A stretch of DNA of 33,639 nucleotides from Bacillota bacterium (lineage in GTDB: Bacteria; Bacillota; Sulfobacillia; JAJZIM01). How positions within the stretch are numbered: position 1 is the stretch's first letter; every line of letters begins with the position of its first letter. Under the pieces are notes generated by a model. The model was not told where the DNA came from. It did not search any database and saw only the letters and a program-made list of their open reading frames with translations. Where the stretch lies: NCBI GenBank assembly GCA_021810565.1, contig JAJZIM010000033.1, positions 1 through 33,639 of the forward strand. The letters run 5' to 3'. The position numbers and the translations under genes were made by a program. Shown piece by piece: positions 3,399 through 32,969 of this stretch.

Positions 3399-3414
3399 CG
3401 GCACGGATGTTGCA
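3399..3414 (+). promoter_or_regulatory. sigma-54 promoter of methyltransferase operon
   Basis: CGGCACGGATGTTGCA matches the consensus TGGCACG-N4-TTGCA at every fixed position except the first. The expected start is about 3425, leaving a short leader of about 33 bases before the ATG at 3458. A small inverted repeat CCGGT/ACCGG (3368-3372/3380-3384) lies just upstream. Confidence 0.85.
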
Positions 3415-3457
3415 TTGACCATGGCCGGCGGCAGTACAAGGAGAAGGAGGAGTGACG

Positions 3458-5136: not shown

Positions 5137-5153
5137 GAAGGGGAGGAATTAAA

Positions 5154-12121: not shown

Positions 12122-12137
12122 CGGCATGCCCCTTGCA
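12122..12137 (+). promoter_or_regulatory. sigma-54 promoter of unknown-CobW-activator operon
   Basis: CGGCATGCCCCTTGCA has exact GG-N10-GC spacing and a consensus -12 TTGCA; CATG replaces CACG. The start is expected near 12148. It begins 12 bases after the stop of the first activator gene. Confidence 0.75.
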
Positions 12138-14392: not shown

Positions 14393-15987
14393 AGGAGCCG
14401 ACCCAGACGCAGGACATGGAGCGGTTTCCCGCCTTGAGCGTGCCGGCCGACACGCCGCTTAGGGAGGCCGTGCGCCTGCTTTCCGAGGAGGCGCCGCCCT
14501 GCCTGGTGCTGGCCGAGCGGGGACAGGTGGCCGGCATAGTCACGCCGCAGGGGGTACTGCGGCGGCTCAACCACGGCGCCGGGTGGGACGAGCCGGTGTC
14601 CCTGGCCGCCGAGAGCCCGGCGGCGGTGCTGGCCGAGGGGGAGGAGACGCCGGCCAAGGCGGGGGCCGGCCCGGTGGTGTACCTGGCCGGCAAGGTTCCC
14701 ACGGCGGTGCAGTGTCGCTGCGGGAACTTCACGCAACTTGAGCGGCGCTGGCGCGAGGCCAGCCGGGAGATGGGCACCCTGCGGGAACTGAACGGCGAGC
14801 TGGAAGCCATCCTGCGGGCCTCCTACGACGGCGTGGTGGTGACCGACCGGGAGCGGGTGCTGCGGGTGAGCGACGGCTTCCGGCGCATCACGGGTTTGCC
14901 CGTGGAGGTGCTGGTGGGGCGACCGGTGGGGCAACTGCCCGCGCAGGGACATGCCTGTGTTCGGGCGGTGCGGCAGGTGATCGAGCGGGTGTGGGAGGTC
15001 AAAGAGCCGGTAACCCTGATGGAGAAGATCTCCTCGGGGAACGAGATCTACTTCACCGGCGTGCCGGTGCTGGACCAGGCGGGGCGGGTGGAGCGGGTGG
15101 TGGTGAACGTGCGGGACGTCACCGACCTGAACCTCTTGCGCTCGGAGCTGGCCAAGGTGCGCGACCTGTCGGACCAGTACAAGAGCGAGTTGGAGGAACT
15201 CAGGGCGCGCCAGCTGCAAACCCAGGACCTGGTGGCCGAGAGCTCCGGCATGCGGCGGGTGTTGGATCTGACGGCCCGGGTGGCGCGGACGGACTCCACG
15301 GTGCTGATCACGGGGGAGTCGGGGGTGGGCAAGGAGGTGGTGGCCAAGCTCCTGCACCGCCTGTCGACCCGCCGGGAGGCACCCCTGATCTTCGTCAACT
15401 GCGGCGCCTTGCCCGAGACCCTGGTGGAGTCGGAGCTGTTCGGCTACGCCCGCGGGGCCTTCACCGGGGCGCGGGAAGAGGGCAAGCCGGGCTTGTTCGA
15501 GGTGGCGGATCGGGGCACCCTGGTGTTGGACGAGGTCTCCGAGCTGCCCGCGGGGGCCCAGGCCAAGCTATTGCGGGTGATCCAGGAGCGGGAGATCACC
15601 CGGGTGGGCGGACTCAAGCCGCGGCAACTGGACGTGAGGGTGGTGGCCCTGTCCAACCGGGACCTGGGGCAGATGGTGCAGGAGGGCACCTTTCGGGAGG
15701 ACCTGTACTACCGGCTGAATGTGGTGCCCATCGCGGTGCCGCCGCTCAGGGAGCGGCGGGAGGACATCCTGCCGCTTTTGCGGCGCTTCCTGGAGCGTTG
15801 CGGCCAGCGCTACGGTCTGCGACGTCGGTTCAGCCTGGAGGCCTTCCGGCGCCTGGAGCGCCACCCTTGGCCGGGCAACGTCCGGGAATTGGAGCACGTG
15901 GTGGAGCGGGCGGTGGTGCTGGGAGAAGGGGAGGTGATCGATGAGGCGGCGGTGGAAACCTTTTTGAGCCTCAACGGGTTGGGCTGA
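14362..15987 (+). CDS. sigma-54 activator lacking a DNA-binding domain (CBS-PAS-AAA+)
   Basis: The 541-aa protein is a paralogue of the activator at 10277, with the same order: CBS-like region, cysteine linker (QCRCGNFTQL), PAS, coiled linker and AAA+ domain. Walker A GESGVGKE lies near residue 317 and GAFTGA near 365, and WPGNVRELEHVVERAVVL closes the AAA+ part. It ends about 15 residues later, with no helix-turn-helix. It could work from solution, or as a mixed oligomer with its paralogue. GTG 14362 follows AAGGAGGAG at eight bases and lies inside the end of the CobW gene, so it was coupled to it. It belongs to an operon with its own sigma-54 promoter. Confidence 0.9.
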   Translation: MPGKRGTARVKEPTQTQDMERFPALSVPADTPLREAVRLLSEEAPPCLVLAERGQVAGIVTPQGVLRRLNHGAGWDEPVSLAAESPAAVLAEGEETPAKAGAGPVVYLAGKVPTAVQCRCGNFTQLERRWREASREMGTLRELNGELEAILRASYDGVVVTDRERVLRVSDGFRRITGLPVEVLVGRPVGQLPAQGHACVRAVRQVIERVWEVKEPVTLMEKISSGNEIYFTGVPVLDQAGRVERVVVNVRDVTDLNLLRSELAKVRDLSDQYKSELEELRARQLQTQDLVAESSGMRRVLDLTARVARTDSTVLITGESGVGKEVVAKLLHRLSTRREAPLIFVNCGALPETLVESELFGYARGAFTGAREEGKPGLFEVADRGTLVLDEVSELPAGAQAKLLRVIQEREITRVGGLKPRQLDVRVVALSNRDLGQMVQEGTFREDLYYRLNVVPIAVPPLRERREDILPLLRRFLERCGQRYGLRRRFSLEAFRRLERHPWPGNVRELEHVVERAVVLGEGEVIDEAAVETFLSLNGLG

Positions 15988-15988
15988 A

Positions 15989-16004
15989 AGGCACGGGACT
16001 TGCA
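15989..16004 (+). promoter_or_regulatory. sigma-54 promoter of ABC importer operon
   Basis: AGGCACGGGACTTGCA matches every fixed position of the consensus except the first. It starts two bases after the activator stop codon. The transcript start would be about 16015, 34 bases before the ATG. Confidence 0.85.
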
Positions 16005-16048: not shown

Positions 16049-17260
16049 ATGCAAAGTCGGGATGAGTTGGATCGGTTGGCGCAAGACTACCTGGACCGCA
16101 GGATCGATCGGCGCACCTTCATGCGCCAGGGCCTTTTGTGGGGGCTTTCCCTCTCCAGCCTGACGGCCTTTCTGGCCAGCTGTGGCACGGCGGCTCCGGC
16201 GGGCCAGGGAGCGGCGGTGGGCACGGCCGGCGCTCCGGTGCACATCAACGTGGGCTACTTCCCTTCTTGGGAAGGGGGCCTGTCCGGGGTCATCATCAAG
16301 AAGCGCAACCTGTGGCAGAAGTACCTGCCCAAGGGCAGCACGGTGAACTGGCAGGTGCAGATCGTGGGGCCGCCCATCGTGGCCGACCTTTTGGCCAACA
16401 AGGAGCAGATCGGATACATCGGGGACATGCCGGCCTTCGTGGCCACCGCCAAGCGCGAGATCGCGGACTTGCGCCTGGTGGAATGCAACGAGTTCTCCCC
16501 CAACGGGGAGATGTGCTGCGTCCTCCTGGTGCGCTCCGACGCCCCCAAGTTCAAGGACTACCAAGAGGCGGTGCGCTGGCTCACCGGCAAGACCATCGGC
16601 ATCTCCGGCAAGGGCTCCTGCGGCGACCGTTTCGTCACCACCCTGATGCAAAAGGAGCACATCTCCGCCCGCAAGGAGTACCTGGATCCCACCATCATCC
16701 TGACCTCCCTGCGCACCGGCAAGATCGACGCCTGCCAGACCTTCGAGCCGCACGTGGCGCAGATCACCAGCGAGGGCGTCGGTCGGGTGGTGGCCACGGG
16801 CAACGACTTCGGGGATCAGGATGCCGACTTCATCGTGATGCGCAAGGATTTCATCGACCAGCATCGGGACGCGGCCGTGGGCTGGATCAAGGCGGACATC
16901 GAGGCTTTGCAGTTCATCCTGGGTCACCCCTACGAGACGGTGAAGTACCTGGCGGCGGAGTTGCCGGGATACACCACCCGGCAGCTTTGGACGGCCATCT
17001 ACGGCCGGTTGCCCTCTTCCAGCGGTGCCGGCACGGTGCGCACCGTGGCCCAGGCCGTGTTCAGCAAGGAGGTCACCGACTTCATCGACAAGAGCTTCCA
17101 GTTCCTGTACCAGGATAAGATCCTGACCATCGACAAGCCACTGCCGGGCGCCGTCTACACCGCCCTGGTGGACCAGGCGGTCAAGGAGTTGGGCGTCACG
17201 GCGCCCTTGGGCGCCATCCGGGGGGAGCCGGCCTCCTCCTTCAATCCGGCCAAGGCTTAG
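16049..17260 (+). CDS. NitT/TauT-type ABC substrate-binding lipoprotein
   Basis: The 403-aa protein is a periplasmic-type binding protein of the SsuA/TauA/NMT1-like superfamily. The N-terminus has a twin-arginine motif (RRTFMRQG, residues 21-28), a hydrophobic stretch and a lipobox LASC with C45, so it is probably exported by Tat and lipid-anchored. The mature part begins with VHINVGYFPSWEGG and includes AKREIADLRLV and GKTIGISGKGS, typical of this fold. Relatives bind sulfonates, nitrate, bicarbonate, thiamine precursors or aromatic acids; the ligand is not predictable here. It is first gene of a five-gene importer operon behind a near-consensus sigma-54 promoter, which suggests it supplies the methyltransferase pathway. 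Confidence 0.9.
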   Translation: MQSRDELDRLAQDYLDRRIDRRTFMRQGLLWGLSLSSLTAFLASCGTAAPAGQGAAVGTAGAPVHINVGYFPSWEGGLSGVIIKKRNLWQKYLPKGSTVNWQVQIVGPPIVADLLANKEQIGYIGDMPAFVATAKREIADLRLVECNEFSPNGEMCCVLLVRSDAPKFKDYQEAVRWLTGKTIGISGKGSCGDRFVTTLMQKEHISARKEYLDPTIILTSLRTGKIDACQTFEPHVAQITSEGVGRVVATGNDFGDQDADFIVMRKDFIDQHRDAAVGWIKADIEALQFILGHPYETVKYLAAELPGYTTRQLWTAIYGRLPSSSGAGTVRTVAQAVFSKEVTDFIDKSFQFLYQDKILTIDKPLPGAVYTALVDQAVKELGVTAPLGAIRGEPASSFNPAKA

Positions 17261-17273
17261 GGAGGGTAGCCAT

Positions 17274-18095
17274 TTGGGCCTGCACATGAAACGCTGGACG
17301 GTGAACCCGGAGACCTGGGGCGCCGTGGTCAGCATCCTGGGCTTCGTGCTCCTTTGGTACATCCTGACCGCGGTGCTGAAACTGCCGCGCTTCGACAAGC
17401 TGCCCAACCCGGTGGCGGTGTTCAGCGCCTGGCTGAGCCCCCATCCCCAGTTCGGGCTGTCCATCTTCACCCGGGGCTACTACCTGGACATCCTGTACAG
17501 CGTGGGGCGGGTGCTGGCCGCCTTCGTGCTGGCCACAGTGCTGGGCGTGGGGCTGGGTCTCCTGATGGGCTGGAGCCGGGTCTTTTTCGACTACAGCTTT
17601 CCCCTGGTGGAGACCCTGCGGCCCATCCCGCCCATAGCCTGGATCCCCCTGGCGGTGCTGGTGCTGCCCACCGCCGAGCTGGGCGTGATCTTCATCACCT
17701 TCATCGCCGCCTTCTTCGCCACGGTGCTGAACACCCTGCTGGGCGTGCGCTCCATCGACGAGGTGTACTTTCGGGCGGCCAGTTGCCTGGGTTCACGGCC
17801 CCGGGACGTGTTTTGGAACGTGGTGGTGCCGGGGGCGCTGCCGGCCATCTTCACCGGGCTGCAGGTGGCCATGGGCATCGCCTGGATCTCCCTGGTGGCC
17901 GGAGAGATGATCGCGGGGCAGCGGGGACTGGGCTATCTGATCTACGAGGACTACTCGAATCTCCAATTCGTTAACATCGTCATCGGCATGGCCACCCTGG
18001 GCCTTTTGGGCTACGGCTCCTCCGCCCTGGTGCGGATGCTGGGCCGCCGCCTCATGGCCTGGGAAGGCCGGCGCCGTGGGGGGGCTATGGCATGA
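17274..18095 (+). CDS. ABC importer permease 1 (SsuC/TauC-like)
   Basis: The 273-aa membrane protein has about six helices and the cytoplasmic coupling motif RAASCLGSRPRDVFWNVVVPGALP (EAA loop), followed by GLQVAMGIAWISLVAGEM, characteristic of SsuC/TauC permeases. The segment ETLRPIPPIAWIPLAVL is almost identical in permease 2. TTG 17274 is chosen because GGAGGG lies seven bases upstream; an ATG four codons later is possible. It starts 13 bases after the binding-protein gene and overlaps the first ATPase gene by four bases. Confidence 0.92.
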   Translation: MGLHMKRWTVNPETWGAVVSILGFVLLWYILTAVLKLPRFDKLPNPVAVFSAWLSPHPQFGLSIFTRGYYLDILYSVGRVLAAFVLATVLGVGLGLLMGWSRVFFDYSFPLVETLRPIPPIAWIPLAVLVLPTAELGVIFITFIAAFFATVLNTLLGVRSIDEVYFRAASCLGSRPRDVFWNVVVPGALPAIFTGLQVAMGIAWISLVAGEMIAGQRGLGYLIYEDYSNLQFVNIVIGMATLGLLGYGSSALVRMLGRRLMAWEGRRRGGAMA

Positions 18096-18916
18096 GCGCG
18101 GGCGGGGCGCTGAGCATCCGCCAGGTGACCAAGGTGTACGACCCGGAGGGCGTGCACGTGGTGGCGGTGGACAACTGTTCCTTGGAGGTGGCGTCGGGGG
18201 AGTTCTTGGTGGTGGTAGGGCCGTCGGGGTGCGGCAAGACCACCCTCCTGAACGTCATCGCGGGCTTCGAGGAACTGAGCGAGGGCGAGATCCGACTGGA
18301 CGAGGGACCGTTGGCCCTGCCGGGAAAGCAGGTCGGCCCCGGGGCGGAGCGGATCGTGGTCTTCCAAAACGGTGCCCTTTTTCCCTGGAAAACGGTGTTG
18401 GAGAACATTGCCTACGGACCCGTGGTGCAGCGGCGCATGGCCAAGAACGAGGCGCAACGCTCCGCCCGGGAGCTCTTGCGGCAGGTGGGGTTGGAGGGGA
18501 TCGAGGAGAGCTACCCGGCGGAGCTTTCCTCGGGGGTCCAGCGCCGGGTGGAGATCCTGCGCGCCCTGATCAACGAGCCGCGGGTGGTGCTGCTGGACGA
18601 GCCGTTCCGGGGTCTGGACGCGGTGGCCAAGAGCGTGATGCATCAGTTTCTCTTGGACATGTTCGAGCGCACCCGGTGCACCATGTACTTCATCACCCAC
18701 GATCTGGATGAGGCCATCTTCCTGGCGGATCGCGTGGTGGTGATGACCACCCGCCCGGCCAGGGTGAAGCTGGAGCTGTCCATCGACCTGCCGCGTCCCC
18801 GGGACCACCGGGTGCTGGGCACGGAGCGCTTTCTGAAGCTGAAGCAGGCGGCGCTGGAGGCGGTGCATGAGGAGGCCTTGAAGGCCTTCCAGGCCGGCGA
18901 GCGCGAGCTGGCGTGA
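18092..18916 (+). CDS. ABC importer ATPase 1, unusual signature motif
   Basis: The 274-aa ATPase has Walker A GPSGCGKTT (about 46-54), Q-loop VVFQNGALFPWKTV, Walker B VVLLDEPFRGLD and switch histidine ITHD. Its signature reads LSSGVQRR where importers normally have LSGGMxQR. The substituted serine sits in the motif that clamps ATP across the dimer, so one of the two ATP sites may be weaker if it pairs with ATPase 2. The ATG overlaps the permease stop (ATGA), giving coupled translation. It energises uptake of the ligand bound by the lipoprotein at 16049. Confidence 0.92.
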   Translation: MSAGGALSIRQVTKVYDPEGVHVVAVDNCSLEVASGEFLVVVGPSGCGKTTLLNVIAGFEELSEGEIRLDEGPLALPGKQVGPGAERIVVFQNGALFPWKTVLENIAYGPVVQRRMAKNEAQRSARELLRQVGLEGIEESYPAELSSGVQRRVEILRALINEPRVVLLDEPFRGLDAVAKSVMHQFLLDMFERTRCTMYFITHDLDEAIFLADRVVVMTTRPARVKLELSIDLPRPRDHRVLGTERFLKLKQAALEAVHEEALKAFQAGERELA

Positions 18917-18927
18917 GGAGGAGGACA

Positions 18928-19740
18928 ATGGCAGTTGCGACGCTTGGGCCCAGGCGGGGCAGGAGCATGGCCAAGCGATGGCTGAACCGGCACGCGTTGC
19001 GCGGCCTGGTCTCCATAGTGGCCTTCGTGGTGCTGTGGGAGCTGGTGGTGGTGCTGAAGCTGCCCTACCTGAAGTTTCTTCCCTTGCCGGGGCAGGTGGC
19101 GGCGTCTTTGGGACAATCCATCGCCTCGTCGGCCTACTGGCAGGATTGGGAGCTCAGCCTGGGCCGGATTCTGGTCGGCTTCCTGGCCGCCCAGGCTTTG
19201 GGCATCACCTTGGGGTTGGCCATGGGCATCAGCCGCACGGCACGGCGTTTCGTGTTCCCCATCTTCGAGGTGTTGCGGCCCATACCGCCCATCGCCTGGA
19301 TCCCGCTGGCCATCATCTTCTGGCCCACGACCAGCCTCACCATCTACTTCCTGGTGTTCACCGGATCCTTCTTCATCGTGGCCCTGAACGTGCTGGACGG
19401 GGTGAAGAGCGTGGACCAGTCCCTGGTGCGGGCGGCCTACTCCCTGGGGGCGAAACCGCGGGACGTGTTCTGGCGGATCATGCTGCCGGCCACCCTGCCC
19501 TACGTGCTCACCGGGGCCACCGTGGGTATGGGGGTGACCTGGAACGTGCTCATCGCGGCCGAGATGGTCACCTCGGCCGGCCAATCGGGCCTGGGCGGGA
19601 TGACCTGGGCGGCCTACACCAACGGGGTGCTGCCGGTGATCGTGGTGGGAATGCTGAGCATCGGGGTGGCGGGGTACCTCTCCAGCGCCCTGATTCGGTT
19701 CTTGGGAGAGCGGTTCATGCCGTGGCGGCGACGGATTTAA
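18928..19740 (+). CDS. ABC importer permease 2 (SsuC/TauC-like)
   Basis: The 270-aa membrane protein has about six helices and the EAA loop RAAYSLGAKPRDVFWRIMLPATLP. It is homologous to, but clearly diverged from, permease 1. ATG 18928 follows GAGGAGGA; a start 15 bases earlier is less well placed. It lies 11 bases after ATPase 1 and just before ATPase 2, so the operon carries two permease-ATPase pairs for a single binding protein. A heterodimeric channel or two alternative importers sharing the binding protein are both possible. Confidence 0.92.
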   Translation: MAVATLGPRRGRSMAKRWLNRHALRGLVSIVAFVVLWELVVVLKLPYLKFLPLPGQVAASLGQSIASSAYWQDWELSLGRILVGFLAAQALGITLGLAMGISRTARRFVFPIFEVLRPIPPIAWIPLAIIFWPTTSLTIYFLVFTGSFFIVALNVLDGVKSVDQSLVRAAYSLGAKPRDVFWRIMLPATLPYVLTGATVGMGVTWNVLIAAEMVTSAGQSGLGGMTWAAYTNGVLPVIVVGMLSIGVAGYLSSALIRFLGERFMPWRRRI

Positions 19741-19753
19741 GGAGGCGAAGGCC

Positions 19754-20596
19754 TTGAGCACGGTGCGGCGAAATTTCGGCGAGTTCCAGGTGACCGGATT
19801 GACCCATGCCTACGGCGGCGTGCCGGTGTTGGAGGACTGTTCTCTGGAAGTGCCGCGGGGCAAGCTGACGGTCCTGGTTGGTCCCTCGGGCTGCGGCAAG
19901 ACGACGCTGATCAACATCCTGGCCGGTTATGAGGCCCCCGCGGGGGGGCGGGTGCTCCTGGACGGACAGCCCGTGGGGGGGCCCGGTCCCGACCGTCTGG
20001 TGGTGTTCCAGGAGACGGCGCTGTTTCCCTGGATGACCGTGGAGCAGAACGTGGCCTTCGGCTGCCGAGTACGGGGCATGCCGGCGGGGGAGATGCGGGA
20101 GCGGGTGCAGGCGGTCCTGGTCAAGGTGGGCCTTTCCGACTTCCAGGCCAAGTATCCCTCGCAATTGTCCGGAGGCATGCAGCGGCGGGCCGAGTTGGCC
20201 CGGGCCATGGTCAACGACCCCAAGGTGCTGATGCTGGACGAGCCCTTCCGCGGTCTGGACGCCATGACCCGCAGCATCATGCAGGAGTTCTACGTGGGAC
20301 TTTTCGAGGAGGTCGGGCGCACCAACCTCTTCATCACCCACGACCTGGAGGAGGCGGTGTTTCTGGCGGATCGCCTGCTGATCATGACCTATCGCCCGGG
20401 GCGGATCAAGGAGGTCATCGAGGTGGATCTGCCGCGGCCGCGCACTTTTCAGGTGATGGCTACCCAGCGGTACAACGATATACGTCAGCACGCCCTGGAG
20501 CTGCTTTTCGAGGAGGCCAGCAAGGCCTTCGAGGCCGGCAGCAAGGCGGCCTTCGACCTGGTGGACGGGTTGGCCCGGGCTGCCGGCAGACAGTAG
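19754..20596 (+). CDS. ABC importer ATPase 2
   Basis: The 280-aa ATPase has all normal motifs: Walker A GPSGCGKTT, Q-loop VVFQETALFPWMTV, signature LSGGMQRR, Walker B VLMLDEPFRGLD and ITHD. TTG 19754 follows GGAGGCG at short distance. With an intact signature it could supply the fully active ATP site in a mixed dimer with ATPase 1. The C-terminal 40 residues form an amphipathic Ala/Glu/Lys-rich helix, also seen in ATPase 1. Confidence 0.92.
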   Translation: MSTVRRNFGEFQVTGLTHAYGGVPVLEDCSLEVPRGKLTVLVGPSGCGKTTLINILAGYEAPAGGRVLLDGQPVGGPGPDRLVVFQETALFPWMTVEQNVAFGCRVRGMPAGEMRERVQAVLVKVGLSDFQAKYPSQLSGGMQRRAELARAMVNDPKVLMLDEPFRGLDAMTRSIMQEFYVGLFEEVGRTNLFITHDLEEAVFLADRLLIMTYRPGRIKEVIEVDLPRPRTFQVMATQRYNDIRQHALELLFEEASKAFEAGSKAAFDLVDGLARAAGRQ

Positions 20597-21664: not shown

Positions 21665-21681
21665 ACCGGGAGGTGGAACAG

Positions 21682-22330: not shown

Positions 22331-22439
22331 CGACTGAAAAGCCGCTGCCCGGGCGTGGCACCCCGAAAAGACCAGCCGGCGGGGGTCATAGGGGCCGGAA
22401 GGTATGCCTGGCACCTCCTAGTTCGTCCAGTACTCCGTG

Positions 22440-23116: not shown

Positions 23117-23140
23117 AGTCGGCCTGTCGGAGGCGGGTAG

Positions 23141-23440: not shown

Positions 23441-23525
23441 GTCGCCATCAAAGCCTGCCCCTTGGCCGTTGGGCCTGTGGTCGCGGTTTACACTGGGCGG
23501 GCCTAGCGCTACAATGCAATCGTAA

Positions 23526-23554
23526 GACAATGTGACAGTGACGTCAACATTATC
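23526..23554. promoter_or_regulatory. imperfect dyad, candidate activator site
   Basis: Arms GACAATGTGAC (23526-23536) and GTCAACATTATC (23543-23554) are near-perfect inverted copies, in an AT-rich patch centred about 73 bases upstream of the predicted folD transcript start. Position and symmetry suit an enhancer-binding protein site; no such match was found at the other sigma-54 promoters. Confidence 0.45.
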
Positions 23555-23586: not shown

Positions 23587-23602
23587 TGGCACGCGGCTTG
23601 CT
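23587..23602 (+). promoter_or_regulatory. sigma-54 promoter of folD-to-fhs operon
   Basis: TGGCACGCGGCTTGCT matches the consensus TGGCACG-N4-TTGC(A/T) completely. The transcript start is expected near 23613, 41 bases before the folD ATG. Confidence 0.9.
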
Positions 23603-23653
23603 ACCATCGGGGAGGAGGGCAAGATCCACAATCAGCGACGGGAGGATGGGACG

Positions 23654-24523
23654 ATGGCACAGATCCTGGACGGACAGGCGCTGGCGGCGGAGATCTACGG
23701 CGAGCTCCAGCGGGAGGTGCAATCCCTGCGTGGCCGACACGGCCGGGTGCCCGGACTGCGGGTGGTGGCGGTGGGGGAGGAGCCGGCCTCCTACGTCTAC
23801 GCCCGCAACCAGGAGCGGCACTGTCGGGAGTTGGGTATCGATTTCGACACGGTGCGCCTGCCCCGGGAGGTGGAGCAGGGGCGGCTGCTCGAGACCCTGG
23901 AGGAGCTGAACGCCGATCCGGCGGTGGACGGCATCCTGCTGTTCGCGCCGCTGCCGCCGCAGCTGGATCAGCAGGAGGCGGTGCGCACCATCGACCCGGG
24001 CAAGGACGTGGAGGGGCTGCATCCGGTGAACCTGGGGAACCTGCTCTTCGAGCGGTCCCACTTCACCCCCTGCACTCCGGGCGGCGTCATCACCCTGCTG
24101 AAGCGCCACCGCATCCCCCTGGAGGGGCGCCGGGTGGTCATCGTGGGCCACAGTCCCGTGGTAGGGAAGCCGGCGGTGCTTTTGTTCCTGGCGGAGCACG
24201 CCACGGCCACCTGCTGCCACCAGTGGACCACCGATCTGGGCCGGCACACCCGGGAGGCCGACGTGCTGATGGTGGCCGTGGGAAAGCCGGGGCTGATCAC
24301 CGCGGACATGGTTCGGCCGGGAGCCGTGGTGGTGGACGTGGGCATCACCCGGGTGGAGGGCAAGCTGGTGGGGGATGTGGACTTCGCCGGGGTGTCCGAG
24401 GTGGCCGGGTGGATCACGCCCGTGCCGGGTGGGGTGGGTCCCATGACCGTGTGCACGCTTTTGTCCAACACGGTGGAAGCGGCGCGGCGGCACGCCCGGC
24501 AGGCGGCGGCCAGGGCCAGCTAG
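23654..24523 (+). CDS. folD: FolD-type methylene-THF dehydrogenase, atypical active site
   Basis: The 289-aa protein aligns end to end with FolD (methylene-THF dehydrogenase/methenyl-THF cyclohydrolase) and keeps KDVEGLHPVN (D118), CTPGGVITLL and the closing TPVPGGVGPMTV. The invariant catalytic lysine (E. coli FolD K54, in YVASK) is Gln53 here (YVYARNQ). The conserved glutamine of the VQLPLP motif is Phe97 (LLFAPLP). Lysine loss is known to abolish cyclohydrolase activity in the human enzyme. The NADP-contact motifs GRS/ASN and SRT also differ (GHSPVVGKP, CHQWT), so NAD may be the cofactor. It may therefore be a dehydrogenase only, or have changed substrate. It is first gene of a sigma-54-led Wood-Ljungdahl operon. 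Confidence 0.9.
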   Translation: MAQILDGQALAAEIYGELQREVQSLRGRHGRVPGLRVVAVGEEPASYVYARNQERHCRELGIDFDTVRLPREVEQGRLLETLEELNADPAVDGILLFAPLPPQLDQQEAVRTIDPGKDVEGLHPVNLGNLLFERSHFTPCTPGGVITLLKRHRIPLEGRRVVIVGHSPVVGKPAVLLFLAEHATATCCHQWTTDLGRHTREADVLMVAVGKPGLITADMVRPGAVVVDVGITRVEGKLVGDVDFAGVSEVAGWITPVPGGVGPMTVCTLLSNTVEAARRHARQAAARAS

Positions 24524-24539: not shown

Positions 24540-25037
24540 ATGCGCGCGGCAAGGGCCGGACGGGAACCTGCGCGGCGGGAAGAGTGGGCGCCATGGGCCG
24601 AGGCGTATCGGGGCCGGCGCGAGCTGGTGCTGGACGCGCTGTTGGACCTCCAGACGCGGGAGGGCCACCTGGACGAGGCGGCCTTGCGGGAGCTGGGGCG
24701 CGCGACGGGGCGCAACCTGAGCTTTCTGCGCGGGGTGGCCTCCTTCTACCCGGCCCTGCGCTTCCGCTCGCCGGGACGGCACCGGGTGCAGGTGTGCCGC
24801 GGGCTTGGATGCGGCATGGAGGACGACTTCGTTCGCCGGGAGGTGGCGGGCTTCCTGCGGGTGCGCCCGGGACAGGTGAGCCGCGACGGGCTGTTCACCT
24901 GGGAGGAGGTCTCGTGCCTGGGGGTGTGCGCCCATGCGCCGGCCATGGTGCTGGACGGCCGGATCATCGGGAAGCTTCGTCCGGGGCAGGCGCGCCGGCT
25001 CCTGGAGGAGACCAGGCACAGGGAGCGGGGACGATGA
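24540..25037 (+). CDS. NuoE/HylA-like [2Fe-2S] subunit
   Basis: The 165-aa protein has a helical N-terminus and a thioredoxin-like [2Fe-2S] domain with C86, C91, C126 and C130 (CRGLGC, CLGVC), the normal NuoE pattern. NuoE-type subunits pass electrons between the FMN subunit and other clusters. ATG 24540 follows GAAGGGAGGCG, 16 bases after folD. It overlaps the next gene by four bases (ATGA). With the NuoF-like subunit it forms a NAD(H) module directly ahead of the Hdr genes, where it probably feeds or drains electrons of the methylene-THF reductase complex. Confidence 0.88.
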   Translation: MRAARAGREPARREEWAPWAEAYRGRRELVLDALLDLQTREGHLDEAALRELGRATGRNLSFLRGVASFYPALRFRSPGRHRVQVCRGLGCGMEDDFVRREVAGFLRVRPGQVSRDGLFTWEEVSCLGVCAHAPAMVLDGRIIGKLRPGQARRLLEETRHRERGR

Positions 25038-26590
25038 GCTACGCGGGCCGGGCGCTGGTGGGGATGGGCAGCTGCGGGATGGCCGCCGGGGCCGAGCGGG
25101 TGGACGAGGCCGTGCGCCGGGGAGCGGTCACCCTGGGACTGCAGCTGGAGGTGGAGGCGGTGGGATGCCTGGGGGAGTGCCACCGGGAGGTGGTGCTGGC
25201 CCTGGAGCGGCCCGGCTTTCCCCGCCTGTATTACGGCCCGGTGGACCCGGAGGCGGTGCGCAAGCTCCTGGAGGGATATTTCCTGCACCGGCGGCCCTAC
25301 CTCATGGGGGTCTTCGCCCGGGAAGGGGAGGGGTTGCCCCAGGTGCCGGAGCTGGCCGCGGTCCTGGCGGGGCAGAGCCGGCGGCTTTTGGCCAACGCCG
25401 GGCGGATCGTCCCGGCCTCCCTGGAGGAGTACCAGGCCGTCGGCGGGTACCGCGCCCTGCGCGCGGCCCTGCGCAGCGAGAGCGGCGAGCTGCGCCGGGA
25501 GGTGGCCGCGGCCGGGCTGCGGGGCAGAAGCGGCAGCGCCTTCCCCACGGGCACCAAGTGGGAGGCGGCCATGCTCACGCCGGGCCCGCGGGTGGTGGCG
25601 GTGAACGCCGACGAGGGGAACCCGGGCACCTTCGGCAACCGGCTGCTCTTGGAGGGGGATCCCCATCGGGTGCTGGAGGGCGCGGCGCTGGCCGCCCTGG
25701 CGGTGGAGGCCGACGCGATTCTGATCTACGTGCGCCACGAGTATCCGCTGGGGCGCTCACGCCTGGAGGAGGCCCTGGCGGCGGCGCAGGGGGCCGGCCT
25801 GCTGGGGCCCGACGTCCTGGGTACCGGGCGGCGGCTGGCGGTGCGGGTGACCGGCGGGGCGGGAGCCTTCATCTGCGGCGAGGAGACGGCGCTTTTGTCC
25901 TCGGCGGAGGGGCGGCGGGGACGGCCGCGGCTGCGCCCGCCGTATCCCGCCCAGCGGGGATATCTCGGGCGGCCCACGGTGGTCCACAACGTGGAGACGG
26001 TGGCCAACCTGCCGGAGCTGATCCTGCGGGGCGCGGCCTGGTTCCGGTCCGTGGGCACCGATCAGAGTCCCGGCACCAAGATCTTCAGCTTCGCGGGGCG
26101 GGTGGCGCGGGGCGGCGCGGTGGAGGTGCCCCTGGGCACGCCGTTGCGGCGGATCCTGGCCTTGGCGGGAGCCGAGGGGGCCCGGGCGGTGGCCCTGGGC
26201 AGCCCCCTGGGTCCGGTGCTGGCGGGGGCGGAGTTGGAACTGCCCGCGGCCTTCGAGGTGCGACCGGAGTTGGGGACCACGGTGGGCTCGGGCGGCCTGC
26301 TGGTGGCGGGAGAGGGGGACTCGGTGCGCGAGCTGGTCCTGGAGTCCCTGCGCATGAGCCGCGACGAGTCCTGCGGGCACTGCGTTCCCTGCCGGGAGGG
26401 GCTGGTGCGTCTGGTGGAGCTGGTGGAGCGCCGTCACGGGGAGGCGCGGATCCGCGCCCTGGCGGACTTGGTGCGCGCGGCGTCCATGTGCGGTCTGGGC
26501 CAGGGAGCGCCGCTGCCGCTTCTGACGGCGTGGGAGCGCTTTCCGGAGGAGTTCGCCCCGTTGGCGACGAGGAGGCGGGAGCATGCCTGA
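25034..26590 (+). CDS. NuoF/HylB-like NADH- and FMN-binding subunit
   Basis: The 518-aa protein starts with a degenerate thioredoxin-like domain (MGSCGMAAGA, VGCLGECHREV) and continues with the NuoF core: FMN/NADH motifs GRSGSAFPTGTKWE, NADEGNPGTFGNR, GAGAFICGEETALL and RPTVVHNVETVAN, then the [4Fe-4S] motif ESCGHCVPCREG with a distal MCGLG. Several FMN-loop residues differ from the common GRGGAGFP and NADEGDPGAF. The two C-terminal ferredoxin clusters of HydB/HylB proteins are absent, so it ends like a NuoF. It should oxidise NADH or reduce NAD+. It overlaps the NuoE-like gene before it and hdrC after it. Confidence 0.9.
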   Translation: MSYAGRALVGMGSCGMAAGAERVDEAVRRGAVTLGLQLEVEAVGCLGECHREVVLALERPGFPRLYYGPVDPEAVRKLLEGYFLHRRPYLMGVFAREGEGLPQVPELAAVLAGQSRRLLANAGRIVPASLEEYQAVGGYRALRAALRSESGELRREVAAAGLRGRSGSAFPTGTKWEAAMLTPGPRVVAVNADEGNPGTFGNRLLLEGDPHRVLEGAALAALAVEADAILIYVRHEYPLGRSRLEEALAAAQGAGLLGPDVLGTGRRLAVRVTGGAGAFICGEETALLSSAEGRRGRPRLRPPYPAQRGYLGRPTVVHNVETVANLPELILRGAAWFRSVGTDQSPGTKIFSFAGRVARGGAVEVPLGTPLRRILALAGAEGARAVALGSPLGPVLAGAELELPAAFEVRPELGTTVGSGGLLVAGEGDSVRELVLESLRMSRDESCGHCVPCREGLVRLVELVERRHGEARIRALADLVRAASMCGLGQGAPLPLLTAWERFPEEFAPLATRRREHA

Positions 26591-27098
26591 GGGTCTTGGA
26601 GGGGAAGCGCAGCGGTGGCTGGACGAGCCGGTGAGCCGCTGCTACGGCTGCCGCAAGTGTTCGGGCGGCTGCCCCATGGGCGAGGAGTTCGACTGGGCGC
26701 CGCACCTGGTGGTGCGCCTGGCCCAACTGGGGCGGGAGGAGGCCCTGCGCGGCAGCCGCACCCTGCAGCTTTGCACCGGCTGCGGCACCTGCGGCGAGCG
26801 CTGCCCCAACGGCATCGCGGCGGGAGCGGTGGTGGAGGCGCTGCGCCGGCGCTTCGGGGAGCCCGGAGGCGCCGGTACCCTGCACCGCGGCTTCCTGGCG
26901 CAGGTGCGCCGGCGCGGGCGCATCCACGAGCTGGGGCTGGCCACCCGCTTCGCCTGGGAGACCCGGGCGGGGATGGATCGGGCAGCTTTGGGGATGGCCC
27001 TGTGGCGGCACGGCAAGCTGCCCCTTTGGCCGCCGCGCCTGGGCGGCCCGGCTCGCCGCGAGGTGGCCGCGATGTTCCGGCCCAGAGGAGGTGCATAG
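26583..27098 (+). CDS. hdrC: HdrC-like iron-sulfur subunit
   Basis: The 171-aa protein has two [4Fe-4S] motifs, C20-C23-C26-C30 (CYGCRKCSGGCP) and C64-C67-C70-C74 (CTGCGTCGERCP), as in the C subunit of heterodisulfide reductase-type complexes. It links HdrA to HdrB electronically. The ATG overlaps the NuoF-like gene by eight bases. In Moorella the same order hdrCBA-mvhD-metVF encodes the Hdr-type methylene-THF reductase complex, which is the expected role here. Confidence 0.92.
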   Translation: MPEGLGGEAQRWLDEPVSRCYGCRKCSGGCPMGEEFDWAPHLVVRLAQLGREEALRGSRTLQLCTGCGTCGERCPNGIAAGAVVEALRRRFGEPGGAGTLHRGFLAQVRRRGRIHELGLATRFAWETRAGMDRAALGMALWRHGKLPLWPPRLGGPARREVAAMFRPRGGA

Positions 27099-27100
27099 CG

Positions 27101-27940
27101 TTGAACTGGTATCCGGGCTGCTCCCTGGAGGGGACCGCGCGGGAGTACGGGGCGTCAATGCGGGAGGCCTGCCGGCTTTTGGGTCACGAGTTGACGGAAC
27201 TACCCGATTGGAGCTGCTGCGGGGCGGGGGTGGCTGGGGGCACCGACGCGGTCTTGTCCCGCGCGCTGCCGCTGCGCAACGTGGCGCTGGCCGCCGCCCG
27301 GGGGGAGGAGCTTCTGGTGCCCTGCGCCGCCTGCTACAACCGGCTGCGCCGGGCCCAGGTGGAACTGGCGGAGGGCCAGCCTCAAGCGGCGGCGGCGGGC
27401 CGGCGGGTGGAGCGTTCCACCGGGCGATCCCCCGGTGCCCCGGTGCGCATCCTGCATCCCTTGCAATGGTGGTCCGAGCCCGAGGTTTTGGCCGAGCTCG
27501 GCCGGCGCGCGGTGCGGCCGTGGGGGCGGTTGCCCCTGGCGGCCTACTACGGCTGCCTGCTGCTGCGGCCGGCGGCGGTGGCCCTGGACGATCCGGAGCA
27601 GCCGCGGCGGATGGAGGCCATCCTGACCGCGGTGGGGGCGCGACCGGTGGCCTGGCCGGGCCGGACCGAGTGCTGCGGCGCCGGATTGGGTTTGGCGGCG
27701 CCGGAGGCGGTGAAACGGCGGGTGCGGCAACTGGCCGAGGCGGCCCGGGCGGCGGGGGCCCGGGCCCTGGTGACGGCCTGCCCCATGTGCCAGGGCAACC
27801 TGGACGCATATCAGGAAGCTCCGGGATTGCCGGTGCTGTTTCTGAGCGAGGTGGTGGCGGGAGCCTTGGGGGCGGACCTCAAGCCCTTCCTGCGGCGGCA
27901 TCTGATCGACAGTGCGGAGGTGGCGGACCTTGCAGGCTGA
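27101..27940 (+). CDS. hdrB: HdrB-like subunit with two CCG domains
   Basis: The 279-aa protein has two cysteine-rich CCG domains: C7...C39-C40 (SCCGAG)...C75-x2-C78 in the first, and GCLLL...TECCGAG...CPMC in the second. In methanogen HdrB such domains bind two non-cubane [4Fe-4S] clusters that split the disulfide substrate. In MetFV-Hdr complexes they are electron carriers or an unknown reductive site. The start is TTG 27101, nine bases after AGAGGAGG. It overlaps hdrA by 11 bases. Confidence 0.92.
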   Translation: MNWYPGCSLEGTAREYGASMREACRLLGHELTELPDWSCCGAGVAGGTDAVLSRALPLRNVALAAARGEELLVPCAACYNRLRRAQVELAEGQPQAAAAGRRVERSTGRSPGAPVRILHPLQWWSEPEVLAELGRRAVRPWGRLPLAAYYGCLLLRPAAVALDDPEQPRRMEAILTAVGARPVAWPGRTECCGAGLGLAAPEAVKRRVRQLAEAARAAGARALVTACPMCQGNLDAYQEAPGLPVLFLSEVVAGALGADLKPFLRRHLIDSAEVADLAG

Positions 27941-30900
27941 ACCGGTGGGGGCGGTGCTGGTGGTGGGGGGTGGCATCGCCGGCATGCAGGCGGCTTTGGA
28001 TCTGGCGGAGGAGGGTTTCCGGGTGCATCTGGTGACCCGGGAACCGTCCCTGGGTGGGCGCATGGCCCGATTGGACAAGACCTTTCCCACCAACGACTGC
28101 GCCATGTGCCTCCTGGGACCGCGGATGGGGGCGGTGGAGCGCCACCCCGATATCCAGGTGCACACCTTGAGCGAGCTGGTGGCCCTGGAGGGGGAGGCGG
28201 GGAACTTCACGGCCCGGGTGCGGGAGGAGGCCCGCCGGGTCGACGTCGAAGCGTGCACCAACTGCGGCAGCTGCTGGGAGAAATGCCCGGCGCGCCTGGA
28301 CAACGCCTTCGACCTGGGCCAGGGCAAGCGCAAGGCCGTGGGCCTGTTCTTCCCCCAGGCGGTGCCGGCGGCGCCCCACATCGTGGGGGAGCGCTGCCTC
28401 TACGTGCAAAAAGGCACCTGCCGCCTGTGCGAAGAGGTGTGCGGGCCGGGGGCCCTGCGCCTGGAGGCCAAGGGGCGGGAGACGGTTCTGGAGGTGGGGG
28501 CGGTGATCCTGGCCCCGGGCAGCGAGGCCTTCGACGCCGACCGCCGCGGGGAGTATGGGCACGGGGTGTACCGCAACGTGCTGAGCGCGCCGGAGCTGGA
28601 GCGGCTTTTGTCCCCCTCGGGGCCCACGGCGGGCGAGGTGCGCCGTCCCTCCGACGGCCGGGTGCCCCGGCGGGTGGCCTTCATCTCCTGCGTGGGCTCG
28701 CGGGACGCGGCCCGCGGTCGGGCATACTGCTCGGCGGTGTGCTGCATGTACACCGCCAAGGAGGCCCGCCTCCTGCTGGAGCACCACCCTGCCACGGAGT
28801 GCACCGTCTTCTACCAGGACCTGCGGGCCGTGGGGAAGGGTTTCGACGCCTATGTGGAGGGGGTACGCCGGATGGGGGCGCGCTACGTGCGCAGCCTGCC
28901 CTCGGCGCTGGCGGAGGATCCCGCCACCCGCAACCTCTCGGTGCGCTACCGGGACGACGCGGGGTTTAACCGGGAGGAGTTCGACCTGGTGGTCTTGGCG
29001 GTGGGCCTGGAGCCGCCGGCCCGGGCGGGAGAGCTGGCCCGGGCGGCCCGGATCGAGCTGGACGCCCGGGGCTTTTGCCGCACCGATCCGGTGTGGCCGG
29101 GACGGACCACCCGGGAGGGGGTGCTGGCGGCGGGCGCCTTTCTGGGGCCGCGGGACATCCCGGACACCGTGGCCTCGGCCTCGGCGGCGGCGTCCCAGGT
29201 GGCCCGAGCGCTGGCGCCGGCCCGGGGTCGGCTAAGCGTCACCCGGGTGTACCCGCCCGAGCGGGCGGACCAGGGTCCGGCGCGCATCGGGGTGGCGGTG
29301 TGCCGCTGCGGCACCAACATCGCCTCGGTGGTGGACGTGCCCCGGGTGGCCGGGTTCGCCGCCCGTCTGCCGGGAGTGGCCTGGGCCGGGGAGGTGACCT
29401 ATGCCTGCTCCCAGGGAAGCCTGGCGGAGCTGGCGGCGGTGGTGGAGCGGGAGAGCCTCAACCGGCTGGTGGTGGCCTCCTGCAGCATCCGCACCCACCT
29501 GCCCCTGTTCCGGGAGGCCATGCGGGAGGCGGGCCTCAATCCCTTCCTGGTGGAGATGGCCAACATCCGGGACCAGTGCTCCTGGGTGCATCGGGACGAG
29601 CCGGAGGCGGCCACGGAGAAGGCCGAGGACCTGGTGGCCATGGCGGCGTACAAGGCGGCCCGGCTGACGCCGTTGGCCACCGGGAAGGTTCCGGTGGTGA
29701 AGACCGTGCTGGTGGTGGGCGCCGGTCCGGCGGGGTTGGCCGCGGCGATGGAACTGGCCGGTCAGGGGTTCGAGGTGGAGCTGGTGGAGCGGGAGGAGCA
29801 CCTGGGGGGCAACCTGCGCCGGCTGTCGCGCACCGCGGAGGGGGTGGACGCGGCCGCGCTGCTGGCCCAGCTGGAGGCCCAGGTGGCCGCGGAGCCCGGC
29901 ATCCGGGTGCACACCCTCACCCAACTGGTGGCGGTCGGGGGCAGTCCGGGCCGCTTCCACAGCACCCTGGAGCGGCAGGGCGCGCGGTGGGAGGTGGCGC
30001 ACGGCGCGGTGGTCCTGGCGCCGGGCACCCGGGAACTGGACCAGGTGGGCTACGACCACGGGAGCGACCCGCGGGTGCTGACCGCCTTGGAGCTGGACCA
30101 GCGGCTGCGGCGGGAGGACTTCGCCGCGGGGGAAGGCAAGACCACGGTGCTCCTGGCCTGCGTGGGTTCGCGGCAGGACGATCGGCCCTATTGCTCACGC
30201 ACCTGCTGCATCCAGGGAGTGCGCCAGGCGCGCGAGCTTGCGCGGCGGGATCCCACCGGTCGGGTTTACCTGCTGTATCGGGACCTGCGCAGCTATGGCT
30301 TCTGGGAGGAGGAGTACCTGGCGGCGCGGGAGGAGGGGGTCGTCTTCCTGCGCTTCGATCCGGCGGCCCCGCCGCGGGTGGAGCCGGGGGAGACCCTGAC
30401 GGTGCGGGTGCGCGACGAGATCGCGGAGCTGGAGCTGGAGCTCGCGGCGGACCGGCTGGTGCTCCTGGCGGCGGCGGTGCCCGCTCCCGGTCTGGCCCAG
30501 CTCACGGGACTGTTCCGCGCGCCGCTGAACGCGGAGGGGTTCCTCCTGGAGACCCACGCCAAGCTGGCGCCCCTGGAGAGCCCGGCGGCGGGAGTGTTTC
30601 TGGCGGGATCCGGCCTCTATCCCCGCACGGCGGGGGAGGCCATGGTCCAGGGCCGGGGAGCGGCCGCCCGGGCGGCGGCGCTTTTGGCCCGGGGGGAACT
30701 GCCCGCCGGCGGCGCGGTGGCGACGGTGGATCCCGAGCGGTGCGCGGGCTGCCTCACCTGCGTGCGGGTGTGTCCCTACGGGATCCCGCGGATGAACGCG
30801 CTCGGCAAGGCCGAGATAGACCCGGCGGTGTGCCACGGTTGCGGCACCTGCGTGGGGGATTGTCCCGCCGACGCCATCGAGCTCGGCTTCTACGACAACC

Positions 30901-30953
30901 GGGAGTTGCGCGGCAAGCTGGCGGGACTGACGGTGAGGAGGCGGTCGGCATGA
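27930..30953 (+). CDS. hdrA: HdrA-like flavoprotein with two FAD domains
   Basis: The 1007-aa protein is a long, doubled HdrA. The first half has an FAD-binding motif GGGIAGMQAALDL (13-25), NDCAMC (C57, C60), an inserted [4Fe-4S] motif CTNCGSCWEKCP (C109-C112-C115-C119) and SCVGSRD. The second half repeats the FAD motif (GAGPAGLAAAMEL, about 595) and ACVGSRQ, and ends with two [4Fe-4S] motifs CAGCLTCVRVCP and CHGCGTCVGDCP. HdrA holds the FAD for flavin-based electron bifurcation in related complexes. TTG 27930, nine bases after GGAGG, is preferred to a GTG six codons earlier. Its stop overlaps mvhD (ATGA). Confidence 0.93.
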   Translation: MQAEPVGAVLVVGGGIAGMQAALDLAEEGFRVHLVTREPSLGGRMARLDKTFPTNDCAMCLLGPRMGAVERHPDIQVHTLSELVALEGEAGNFTARVREEARRVDVEACTNCGSCWEKCPARLDNAFDLGQGKRKAVGLFFPQAVPAAPHIVGERCLYVQKGTCRLCEEVCGPGALRLEAKGRETVLEVGAVILAPGSEAFDADRRGEYGHGVYRNVLSAPELERLLSPSGPTAGEVRRPSDGRVPRRVAFISCVGSRDAARGRAYCSAVCCMYTAKEARLLLEHHPATECTVFYQDLRAVGKGFDAYVEGVRRMGARYVRSLPSALAEDPATRNLSVRYRDDAGFNREEFDLVVLAVGLEPPARAGELARAARIELDARGFCRTDPVWPGRTTREGVLAAGAFLGPRDIPDTVASASAAASQVARALAPARGRLSVTRVYPPERADQGPARIGVAVCRCGTNIASVVDVPRVAGFAARLPGVAWAGEVTYACSQGSLAELAAVVERESLNRLVVASCSIRTHLPLFREAMREAGLNPFLVEMANIRDQCSWVHRDEPEAATEKAEDLVAMAAYKAARLTPLATGKVPVVKTVLVVGAGPAGLAAAMELAGQGFEVELVEREEHLGGNLRRLSRTAEGVDAAALLAQLEAQVAAEPGIRVHTLTQLVAVGGSPGRFHSTLERQGARWEVAHGAVVLAPGTRELDQVGYDHGSDPRVLTALELDQRLRREDFAAGEGKTTVLLACVGSRQDDRPYCSRTCCIQGVRQARELARRDPTGRVYLLYRDLRSYGFWEEEYLAAREEGVVFLRFDPAAPPRVEPGETLTVRVRDEIAELELELAADRLVLLAAAVPAPGLAQLTGLFRAPLNAEGFLLETHAKLAPLESPAAGVFLAGSGLYPRTAGEAMVQGRGAAARAAALLARGELPAGGAVATVDPERCAGCLTCVRVCPYGIPRMNALGKAEIDPAVCHGCGTCVGDCPADAIELGFYDNRELRGKLAGLTVRRRSA

Positions 30954-31378
30954 CGCGGTCCGAGCCGCTCCTGGTGGCCTTCTGCTGCTACTGGTGCGCC
31001 TATGCGGCGGCGGATCTGGCCGGGGGCATGCGCCTGTCCTACCCCCCCAACGTGCGGGTGGTGGAGGTGCCCTGCAGCGGTCGGGTGGAGCCGGAGCTCA
31101 TCCTCAGGGCCTTGAACGAGGGTGCCGACGGGGTGATGGTGGCGGGCTGCCTGGAGGGCGACTGCCACTACCAGCGGGGCAACCTGCGGGCGCGCCGCCG
31201 GGTGGAGCGGCTGCGCCGCCTGCTGGAGGAGCTGGGAGTGGAGCCCGAACGGGTGGAGATGTTCAATTTGTCGGCGGCCATGGGGCCGCGCTTCGCGCAG
31301 ATCGTGGCCGAAATGACCGAGCGGCTGCGCGGGCTGCCCCCGAGGAAATTCCAGGCGGTGGAGGAGGCGGGAGCATGA
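30950..31378 (+). CDS. mvhD: MvhD-like [2Fe-2S] electron-transfer subunit
   Basis: The 142-aa protein matches MvhD/FrhD-type proteins: cysteines FCCYWCAYAAAD near the start, PCSGRVEPELILRAL and GCLEGDCHY in the middle. MvhD binds one [2Fe-2S] cluster and connects HdrA to its electron donor. Between hdrA and metV it should connect HdrABC to the methylene-THF reductase. Its start and stop both overlap neighbours by four bases. Confidence 0.93.
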   Translation: MTRSEPLLVAFCCYWCAYAAADLAGGMRLSYPPNVRVVEVPCSGRVEPELILRALNEGADGVMVAGCLEGDCHYQRGNLRARRRVERLRRLLEELGVEPERVEMFNLSAAMGPRFAQIVAEMTERLRGLPPRKFQAVEEAGA

Positions 31379-32043
31379 TCGTGGCACAGGCCAAACCCTT
31401 CCCGGAACTCGCCCAGATGCTGCAGGACGCCCGGCGGGTGCTGGTGGCGGGCTGCGGCGGCTGCGTGGCGGTGTGCCAGGCGGGGGGGGAGCAGGAGGCA
31501 CGGATCCTGGCCGAGGCGATCCGGCTGTGGGCCGGAGAGCAGGGGCGACCGATGGAGGCGCGCGCCGTGGTGGTGCCGCGCCAATGCGAGCCGGAGTGGG
31601 CCCAGTCCCTGGGGCCGGCGATGGATGAGGCGGACGTGGTGGTGTCCTTGGGCTGCGGGGTGGGGGTGGGTTTCCTGGCGGAGGTACGGCCCGGGATGCG
31701 GGTGCTGCCGGGTCTCAACACCAGCTTTGGAGGCGGCACGGTCTCGCCGGGCGTGTTCGAGGAGCGCTGTCGCATGTGCGGCGACTGCGTGCTGGGCCGG
31801 ACGGGTGGCATCTGCCCCGTGGCGCGGTGCGCCAAGAACCTATGGAACGGGCCATGCGGCGGCTCGGCCGACGGCCGGTGCGAGGTGGACCCCCAGGTGA
31901 GCTGCGCCTGGCACCAGATCGCCCAGCGCCTGACGGCGCGGGGGGAGACCGGCTTTCTGGAGGAGATCGCCCCGCCCAAGGACTGGTCCACCGCGGGGGA
32001 CGGCGGACCGCGCCGCATCGTGCGGGAGGATCTCGCGTCATGA
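31375..32043 (+). CDS. metV: MetV, zinc/iron-sulfur partner of methylene-THF reductase
   Basis: The 222-aa protein resembles MetV and the MetF-associated C-terminal domain. It has an N-terminal CGGCVAVCQAGG and a C-terminal CRMCGDCVLGRTGGICPVARCAKNLWNGPCGG cluster, which hold a [4Fe-4S] cluster and zinc in known MetFV structures. It delivers electrons to MetF flavin. Coupled to mvhD and metF by ATGA overlaps. Confidence 0.93.
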   Translation: MIVAQAKPFPELAQMLQDARRVLVAGCGGCVAVCQAGGEQEARILAEAIRLWAGEQGRPMEARAVVVPRQCEPEWAQSLGPAMDEADVVVSLGCGVGVGFLAEVRPGMRVLPGLNTSFGGGTVSPGVFEERCRMCGDCVLGRTGGICPVARCAKNLWNGPCGGSADGRCEVDPQVSCAWHQIAQRLTARGETGFLEEIAPPKDWSTAGDGGPRRIVREDLAS

Positions 32044-32969
32044 GCCGGCTAAGTGAGGTCCTGGCGGCGGGGCGCTTCGCGGTGACGGCGGAGATCGGGC
32101 CGCCCAAGCACGCGGACGCGCGCAAGGTGCGGGAGCTGGCGAGGCTCTTGGCCCCCTGCACCGATGCCCAGAACCTGACGGACAACCAGACGGCGGTGGT
32201 GCGGCTTTGCTCCCTGGCGGCGGCGGTGCACGTGCGGGAGGCGGGGGGGGAGCCGGTGCTGCAGCTGACCTGCCGGGACCGCAACCGCATCGCCCTGCAG
32301 TCGGACCTCCTGGGGGCGGCCTCCCTGGGGATCGAGAACGTGCTGTGCCTGACCGGGGACCACCAGAAGTTCGGCAACCATCCCCAGGCCAAGGGGGTCT
32401 TCGACCTGGACTCGGTGCAGCTTTTGGCCATGGCGCGGGGGATGGGGGAGGGGCGCTTTCTGAACGGGGAGGAGATCAAGGCGCCGCCGCGGCTGTTCCC
32501 GGGGGCGGCGGAGAACCCCTTCGCGGGCCCCTCGGCGGCCTTCCGGGCGGCGCGGCTGGCCAAGAAGGCCCGGGCGGGGGCGCGCTTCATCCAGACCCAG
32601 GTGGTGTATGACCTGGCGGGGTTCCAAGCGTTCATGGCGGCGGTGCGGCAGCTGGGGAACCCGGTGCCGGTGCTGGCGGGGGTCACCCCGCCCAAGTCGG
32701 CGCGGGCCCTCAAGTACATGCAGGGGATCCCGGGGTTTCGGGTGAGCGAGGAGGCCCTCCGGCGGATGGAGGGGGCCTCCGATCCCAAGGAGGAGGGCAT
32801 CCGGCTGGCGGTGGAGCTGATCCGTCAACTGCGGGAGGTGCCCGGGGTGGCGGGAGTGCACATCATGGCCATCGGCTGGGAGGAGGCGGTGCCCCGGATC
32901 GTGGAGGAGTCCGGACTCATGCCCCGGCCCGAGATACAGGAAACAGACGGGATAGGAGGAGCGGCATGA
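32040..32969 (+). CDS. metF: methylene-tetrahydrofolate reductase MetF
   Basis: The 309-aa TIM-barrel flavoprotein catalyses methylene-THF to methyl-THF in the methyl branch, or the reverse when methyl groups are oxidised. Motifs are [11 protein letters not shown] near the start (catalytic glutamate), [14 protein letters not shown] and NVLCLTGDH in the middle, and QTQVVYD late. The length is right for the short acetogen MetF that needs MetV. It starts inside the metV stop and ends inside the fhs start, so stoichiometric synthesis is likely. Confidence 0.95.

Follow-up and report, generated by a model that had tools for sequence, protein, structure and literature searches.

The window analysed here is the whole 33,639-nt contig, and it contains a methyltransferase system with transporters and two sigma-54 activators, followed by an operon of THF methyl-branch and redox genes (Table 1). 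It was compared with G001, the only genome of the same order in our collection, which belongs to a different (sister) family and is 84% complete. The operon has the gene order folD-nuoE-nuoF-hdrC-hdrB-hdrA-mvhD-metV-metF-fhs, with gaps of at most 16 nt and overlaps at most junctions, and it continues uninterrupted until the contig is cut off within fhs, just as the initial annotation, which had described an unbroken coupled operon from folD to fhs, had read it. The same annotation's term "methyl-branch operon" is correct for the THF methyl-branch genes but too bare, since the operon also has genes for a predicted methylene-THF reductase module of the Hdr type, with NuoEF added. Specifically, six contiguous HdrCBA-MvhD-MetVF genes are present, of which hdrC, hdrA, metV, and metF were assigned by family or structure and hdrB and mvhD by translation. 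This subunit set is the same as that of the hdrCBA-mvhD-metVF cluster of Moorella thermoacetica and Sporomusa ovata, including the duplicated flavin unit of HdrA (PMC9430772). Unlike in that cluster, nuoE and nuoF are inserted here, folD and fhs flank the genes, and the set is a second copy besides an acs-linked metF-fhs.

Table 1. Genes and promoter elements of the window, in order of position.
Feature	Position	Strand	Remarks
Sigma-54 site CGGCACGGATGTTGCA	3399..3414	+	Before methyltransferase operon; position conserved in G001
UroD/MtaA-CmuA-superfamily methyltransferase, MTI candidate	3452..4501	+	PF01208; weak MtbA/MtaA matches below cut-off
Corrinoid protein, start codon uncertain	4504..5136	+	PF02310/PF02607; nearest solved 1y80, 4jgi among others
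Methyl-THF:corrinoid methyltransferase (MTII)	5214..6005	+	NF005719 above cut-off; solved relatives 2yci, 4o0q
RACo-type corrinoid activation protein	6010..7839	+	PF14574/PF17651
Sodium:solute symporter	8376..9980	-	PF00474
Sigma-54 site GGGCATGAATATTGCA	10148..10163	-	Before sodium:solute symporter
Sigma-54 activator bEBP1	10268..12109	+	PAS, AAA+ with GAFTGA, HTH
Sigma-54 site CGGCATGCCCCTTGCA	12122..12137	+	Before gene X; conserved in G001
Conserved protein X	12222..13514	+	71% identical in G001
Sigma-54 activator bEBP2	14389..15987	+	CBS, PAS, AAA+ with GAFTGA; HTH not found
Sigma-54 site AGGCACGGGACTTGCA	15989..16004	+	Before ABC transporter
NMT1/SsuA-type ABC transporter: binding protein, two permeases, two ATPases	16049..20596	+	
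Sigma-A-type promoter TTTACA-17-TACAAT	23487..23515	+	10/12 matches; only such match in window
Palindromic operator-like element TGACAGTGACGTCAACATTA	23533..23552	+	Shortly downstream of sigma-A -10
-24/-12 (sigma-54-type) promoter element TGGCACGCGGCTTGCT	23587-23602	+	Upstream of folD
folD, methylene-THF dehydrogenase/cyclohydrolase	23654..24523	+	PF00763/PF02882 (Pfam)
nuoE-like [2Fe-2S] subunit	24540..25037	+	PF01257
nuoF-like NADH-binding subunit	25034..26590	+	Named from translation; 4-nt overlap with nuoE
hdrC-like 4Fe-4S protein	26583..27098	+	Fer4 families
hdrB-like subunit, start codon uncertain	27101..27940	+	Named from translation
hdrA-like subunit, two flavin units and C-terminal ferredoxin domain	27912..30953	+	HdrA of 5odc, E 7e-173
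mvhD-like subunit	30950..31378	+	Named from translation
metV-like subunit	31375..32043	+	PF12225
metF, methylene-THF reductase	32040..32969	+	PF02219
fhs, formyl-THF synthetase, cut by contig end	32966..33639	+	80% identity to full-length Fhs of G001 over 224 residues

The suggestion that this copy of the methyl branch belongs to a substrate-specific methyl system gained support from the genes that adjoin the operon. The gene set of a four-component O-demethylase is complete, with methyltransferase I (UroD-type), the corrinoid protein, methyltransferase II (acting on methyl-THF and corrinoid), and the activating enzyme (RACo-type), and the four-component O-demethylases of acetogens and Desulfitobacterium likewise have these genes together. 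Two of the solved relatives, 4jgi and 4o0q, belong to a Desulfitobacterium O-demethylase. The first-step methyltransferase of the window has no close solved relative, and in this it departs from a plain O-demethylase likeness. The ABC transporter, with a binding protein identified by family match and permeases and ATPases read from translations, resembles aliphatic-sulfonate/taurine importers. Protein X has no match in Pfam, NCBIfam, or the PDB and is possibly a substrate-handling protein; a single-sequence structure prediction (pLDDT 36) was set aside. In G001 the gene occurs as tandem copies (67-71% identity; L142:3075-4412 and 4409-5615) behind a conserved sigma-54 site.

The genome has a single rpoN gene and only two strong sigma-54 activators (PF00158), both of which are in the window, with the GAFTGA motif read from their sequences. 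The degenerate -24/-12 pattern GGYAYGNNNNTTGCW has 14 matches genome-wide, with about 15 expected, and five of these fall in the 33.6-kb contig, where 0.16 would be expected (P about 8e-7, a value that is somewhat optimistic because the pattern was drawn up after the sites had been seen). All five are on the correct strand and 37-167 nt upstream of a gene. The window is a genuine sigma-54 locus, and the initial annotation was right to expect control by an ATP-driven activator in this region. Only 1 nt separates the end of the bEBP2 gene from the sigma-54 site that follows it. An activator-binding sequence common to the sigma-54 promoters was not found, and the idea of a common activator palindrome upstream of all the sites was dropped because no shared dyad rose above shuffled sequences.

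Much of this arrangement recurs in G001. The methyltransferase (72% identity) is preceded there by TGGCATGGCCATTGCA, gene X by TGGTACGGGCCTTGCA, the binding-protein gene, which is divergent from bEBP1, by TGGCATAATTATTGCA, and rpoN by an exact TGGCACGCATATTGCA; the C-terminus of RpoN is encoded directly upstream of the methyltransferase gene. The bEBP1 of G001 (58% identity over the N-terminal part that was compared) is the only strong activator of that genome and lies in the orthologous locus, and bEBP2 was not found in the 84% complete assembly. The recurrence of sigma-54 sites at rpoN, the methyltransferase, X, and the binding protein argues that the circuit is conserved, apparently including self-activation of rpoN.

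The initial annotation had also guessed that further copies of the methyl-branch genes might exist, and a search of the genome found them. There is a second folD on contig C33 (56% identity). A second metF, with 84% DNA identity over 1020 bp, stands at the end of an acs-like cluster on contig C4, a third metF-like gene is on contig C52 (53%), and the C-terminus of Fhs is present at two contig ends. The second metF-fhs stands in the acetyl-CoA-synthase cluster. The genome has CODH/ACS genes in the form of cooS copies and of acs-like genes read from translations on C4, where the C-terminus of acsB is followed by acsC-acsV-acsD-acsE. A PF03598 search did not find the CdhC domain in the assembly; given the cooS-acsB of G001 and the acs genes on C4, this domain is probably in an assembly gap, and the same genes led us to reject the idea that the organism has no acetyl-CoA synthase and so is not an acetogen. 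With up to two mismatches allowed, no sigma-54 site was found on the 10-kb C4 contig, which lacks the start of its own acs-like operon. It should be noted that the assembly is fragmented, with gaps inside fhs and both of the similar cooS copies. A join of contigs C32 and C52, which would place rpoN downstream of fhs, is no more than possible, given that two contig ends carry an Fhs C-terminus, and it was not adopted.

Three elements lie in series upstream of folD. The one nearest the gene had been claimed as a full-consensus sigma-54 promoter, and TGGCACGCGGCTTGCT is indeed an exact match to TGGCACGNNNNTTGCW with the GG-N10-GC signature, and the only one in the window (expected, 0.02 from dinucleotide shuffles and 0.014 from a Markov estimate). 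It is separated from the folD ATG by 51 nt, and the 41 bases given earlier fit the distance from the predicted transcription start to the ATG. The 3.18-Mb assembly contains two exact matches to TGGCACGNNNNTTGCW, at folD and directly upstream of rpoN, while about 1.3 would be expected by chance in a genome of such size and composition. For this reason the exact match at folD taken alone is poor evidence, and its location counts more. The other two elements are the sigma-A-type promoter and the palindrome. The G001 folD gene is preceded by TTTACA-17-TAAAAT, so that the form common to both genomes is TTTACA-17-TAnAAT, and in both the sigma-A-type promoter is followed by a palindrome whose shared form is ACAGTGACGTCAnnATTA. 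The G001 palindrome, TAACAGTGACGTCACTATTA, is also shortly downstream of the -10, and a second copy, TAACAGTGACGTCATTATTA, lies nearer the gene (L161:7417-7436 and 7708-7727). When 154 genomes of the class were searched with the core ACAGTGACGTCANNATTA, allowing one mismatch, exact matches were found only upstream of folD (one in the present genome and two in G001), and the single further match, with one mismatch, was elsewhere, in G135. The palindrome is a candidate for a conserved, locus-specific operator.

Based on these data, we lean towards dual control of the folD operon, in which a conserved sigma-A promoter with its operator would be combined with a lineage-specific sigma-54 promoter in a dedicated circuit. 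The sequence itself shows the sites, genes, copies, and conservation, while promoter use, inducing signal, substrate, and flux direction are inferred. In this reading, the window would be at the centre of a small and apparently dedicated sigma-54 circuit. The substrate or its transport may be sensed through the CBS and PAS domains of one or both local activators, which would then turn on the -24/-12 promoters of the O-demethylase-like methyltransferase system, of its transporters, and of rpoN itself. The folD-nuoEF-hdrCBA-mvhD-metVF-fhs genes would form a second THF methyl branch, with an Hdr-type methylene-THF reductase at its core and an NADH module added. The older, conserved sigma-A promoter with the palindromic operator may give basal or separately regulated expression, and the newer, downstream sigma-54 promoter of this lineage would couple the operon to induction by the methyl substrate. 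Since the methyltransferase system adjoins the operon and a separate acs-linked copy exists, the likely flux would be oxidation of substrate methyl groups by this copy, with the ACS-linked metF-fhs copy serving acetyl-CoA synthesis. A more far-reaching version is somewhat less likely than not: a complete sigma-54 system, with a self-activated rpoN and activators only here, would be devoted to one methyl-substrate pathway and would have captured a duplicate Wood-Ljungdahl methyl branch, including its Hdr/NuoEF-type methylene-THF reductase, by way of the sigma-A/palindrome/sigma-54 arrangement.

Dual control has to be weighed against a reading that we consider rather unlikely, namely that the folD site is a chance or decayed sequence and that the sigma-A promoter and a palindrome-binding regulator are all that control the operon, with the neighbours being truly sigma-54 dependent. 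This would fit the background rate of consensus matches given above, with one of the two found being at rpoN, and it would fit the conserved sigma-A promoter and the palindrome, which is exact nowhere else in the 154 genomes. It would also fit the last base of the site, as the 3' end is TTGCT at folD and TTGCA at the other four sites of the window, the rpoN sites, and the G001 sites, and the folD site scores 11.6 versus at least 18.8 for the others when the matrix is built from those others and the folD site is excluded. Moreover, the region upstream of G001 folD (protein 72% identical) has no sigma-54 site while the other sites are conserved, an absence that, in the one relative compared, agrees with lineage-specific gain and with chance alike. 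Against a chance origin, the 0.014 exact matches expected in the window become far fewer when the match must lie within 60 nt of one particular start codon in a sigma-54 locus.

The opposite reading, that of the initial annotation, was that sigma-54 is the sole promoter, so that the second methyl branch would be entirely off when the inducing substrate is absent. In its favour, the site matches the full consensus and is spaced normally from the gene, and the locus has two activators and other sigma-54 sites. It is nevertheless improbable, because about 100 nt farther upstream there is a good sigma-A promoter, together with the palindrome, and this promoter is conserved in G001 where the sigma-54 site is not. 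Less probable still is a two-promoter switch, in which the palindrome would be the enhancer of one of the sigma-54 activators, blocking the sigma-A promoter and activating the sigma-54 promoter. The palindrome's position just downstream of the sigma-A -10 and some 60-80 nt before the predicted start of sigma-54 transcription is plausible for both roles, but the loci scanned contain no palindrome copy, with up to six mismatches, close to the other sigma-54 sites, and G001 has the palindrome without the sigma-54 site.

The core Wood-Ljungdahl genes are commonly viewed as one set with one role. In the present genome there are two THF branches: one accompanies the acetyl-CoA synthase genes, and the other adjoins a methyltransferase system with sigma-54 control. 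This suggests that regulation could let cells keep methyl oxidation apart from CO2 reduction. Having only two activators, both in one locus, together with apparent self-activation of rpoN, it would also be a very small example of an alternative sigma factor dedicated to one pathway.

Sigma-54 control of methyltransferase clusters is already known. From the accessible text on Sporomusa sphaeroides KIAC, its betaine/trimethylamine methyltransferase cluster has several sigma-54 promoters and local activators and is induced by the methyl substrate, and in this it is likewise a corrinoid methyltransferase cluster with sigma-54 promoters and activators at hand; the first-step methyltransferase is MttB-type there and UroD-type here (PMC12456013). 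The same text describes the Wood-Ljungdahl genes of that organism as highly expressed across the growth conditions tested and does not report them under sigma-54, unlike the present genome, where a second THF-branch operon bears a sigma-54 site (PMC12456013). The sigma-54 regulons described for Clostridiales are mainly concerned with Stickland reactions, fermentation, and amino acid catabolism (PMC6615313), and sigma-54 control extends to MttB in Clostridia (PMC12316311); there, too, sigma-54 activators control catabolic operons via -24/-12 promoters, and a term search of the two main texts brought up no core methyl-branch genes under sigma-54. Nor did the open-access literature that was searched yield any description of a folD-metVF-fhs operon with a sigma-54 promoter.

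Several minor observations concern the surroundings of these genes. More distant relatives of the activators (about 50% identical, from Desulfosporosinus) were of no help for function; the one neighbourhood examined (L025) carries redox genes, among them hdrA- and nuoEF-like ones, and no methyltransferases. The two cooS copies are about 95% identical in DNA and are both cut at contig ends (the ends of L118 and L181), and one of them sits after formate-dehydrogenase-like and NuoEF-like genes. A sigma-54 promoter 305 nt upstream of cooS (C26:35464; L118:17965-17980) is not claimed, as matches to the degenerate pattern are at chance level (about 15 per genome), and the 328 nt available upstream of G001 cooS-acsB contain no such site. 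The divergent neighbour of rpoN has a -24/-12-like site of its own, CGGTACGCATCTTGCA (L119:13570-13650), which leads to a truncated NuoE-like ORF and a TauE-like permease. Between the ABC transporter and folD, an EamA-type transporter gene and a small ribbon-helix-helix-like gene (named by eye) seem to be tandemly duplicated (20600-21936 and about 22400-23440), with 82-89% DNA identity in blocks, and the second copy of the transporter looks degenerate.
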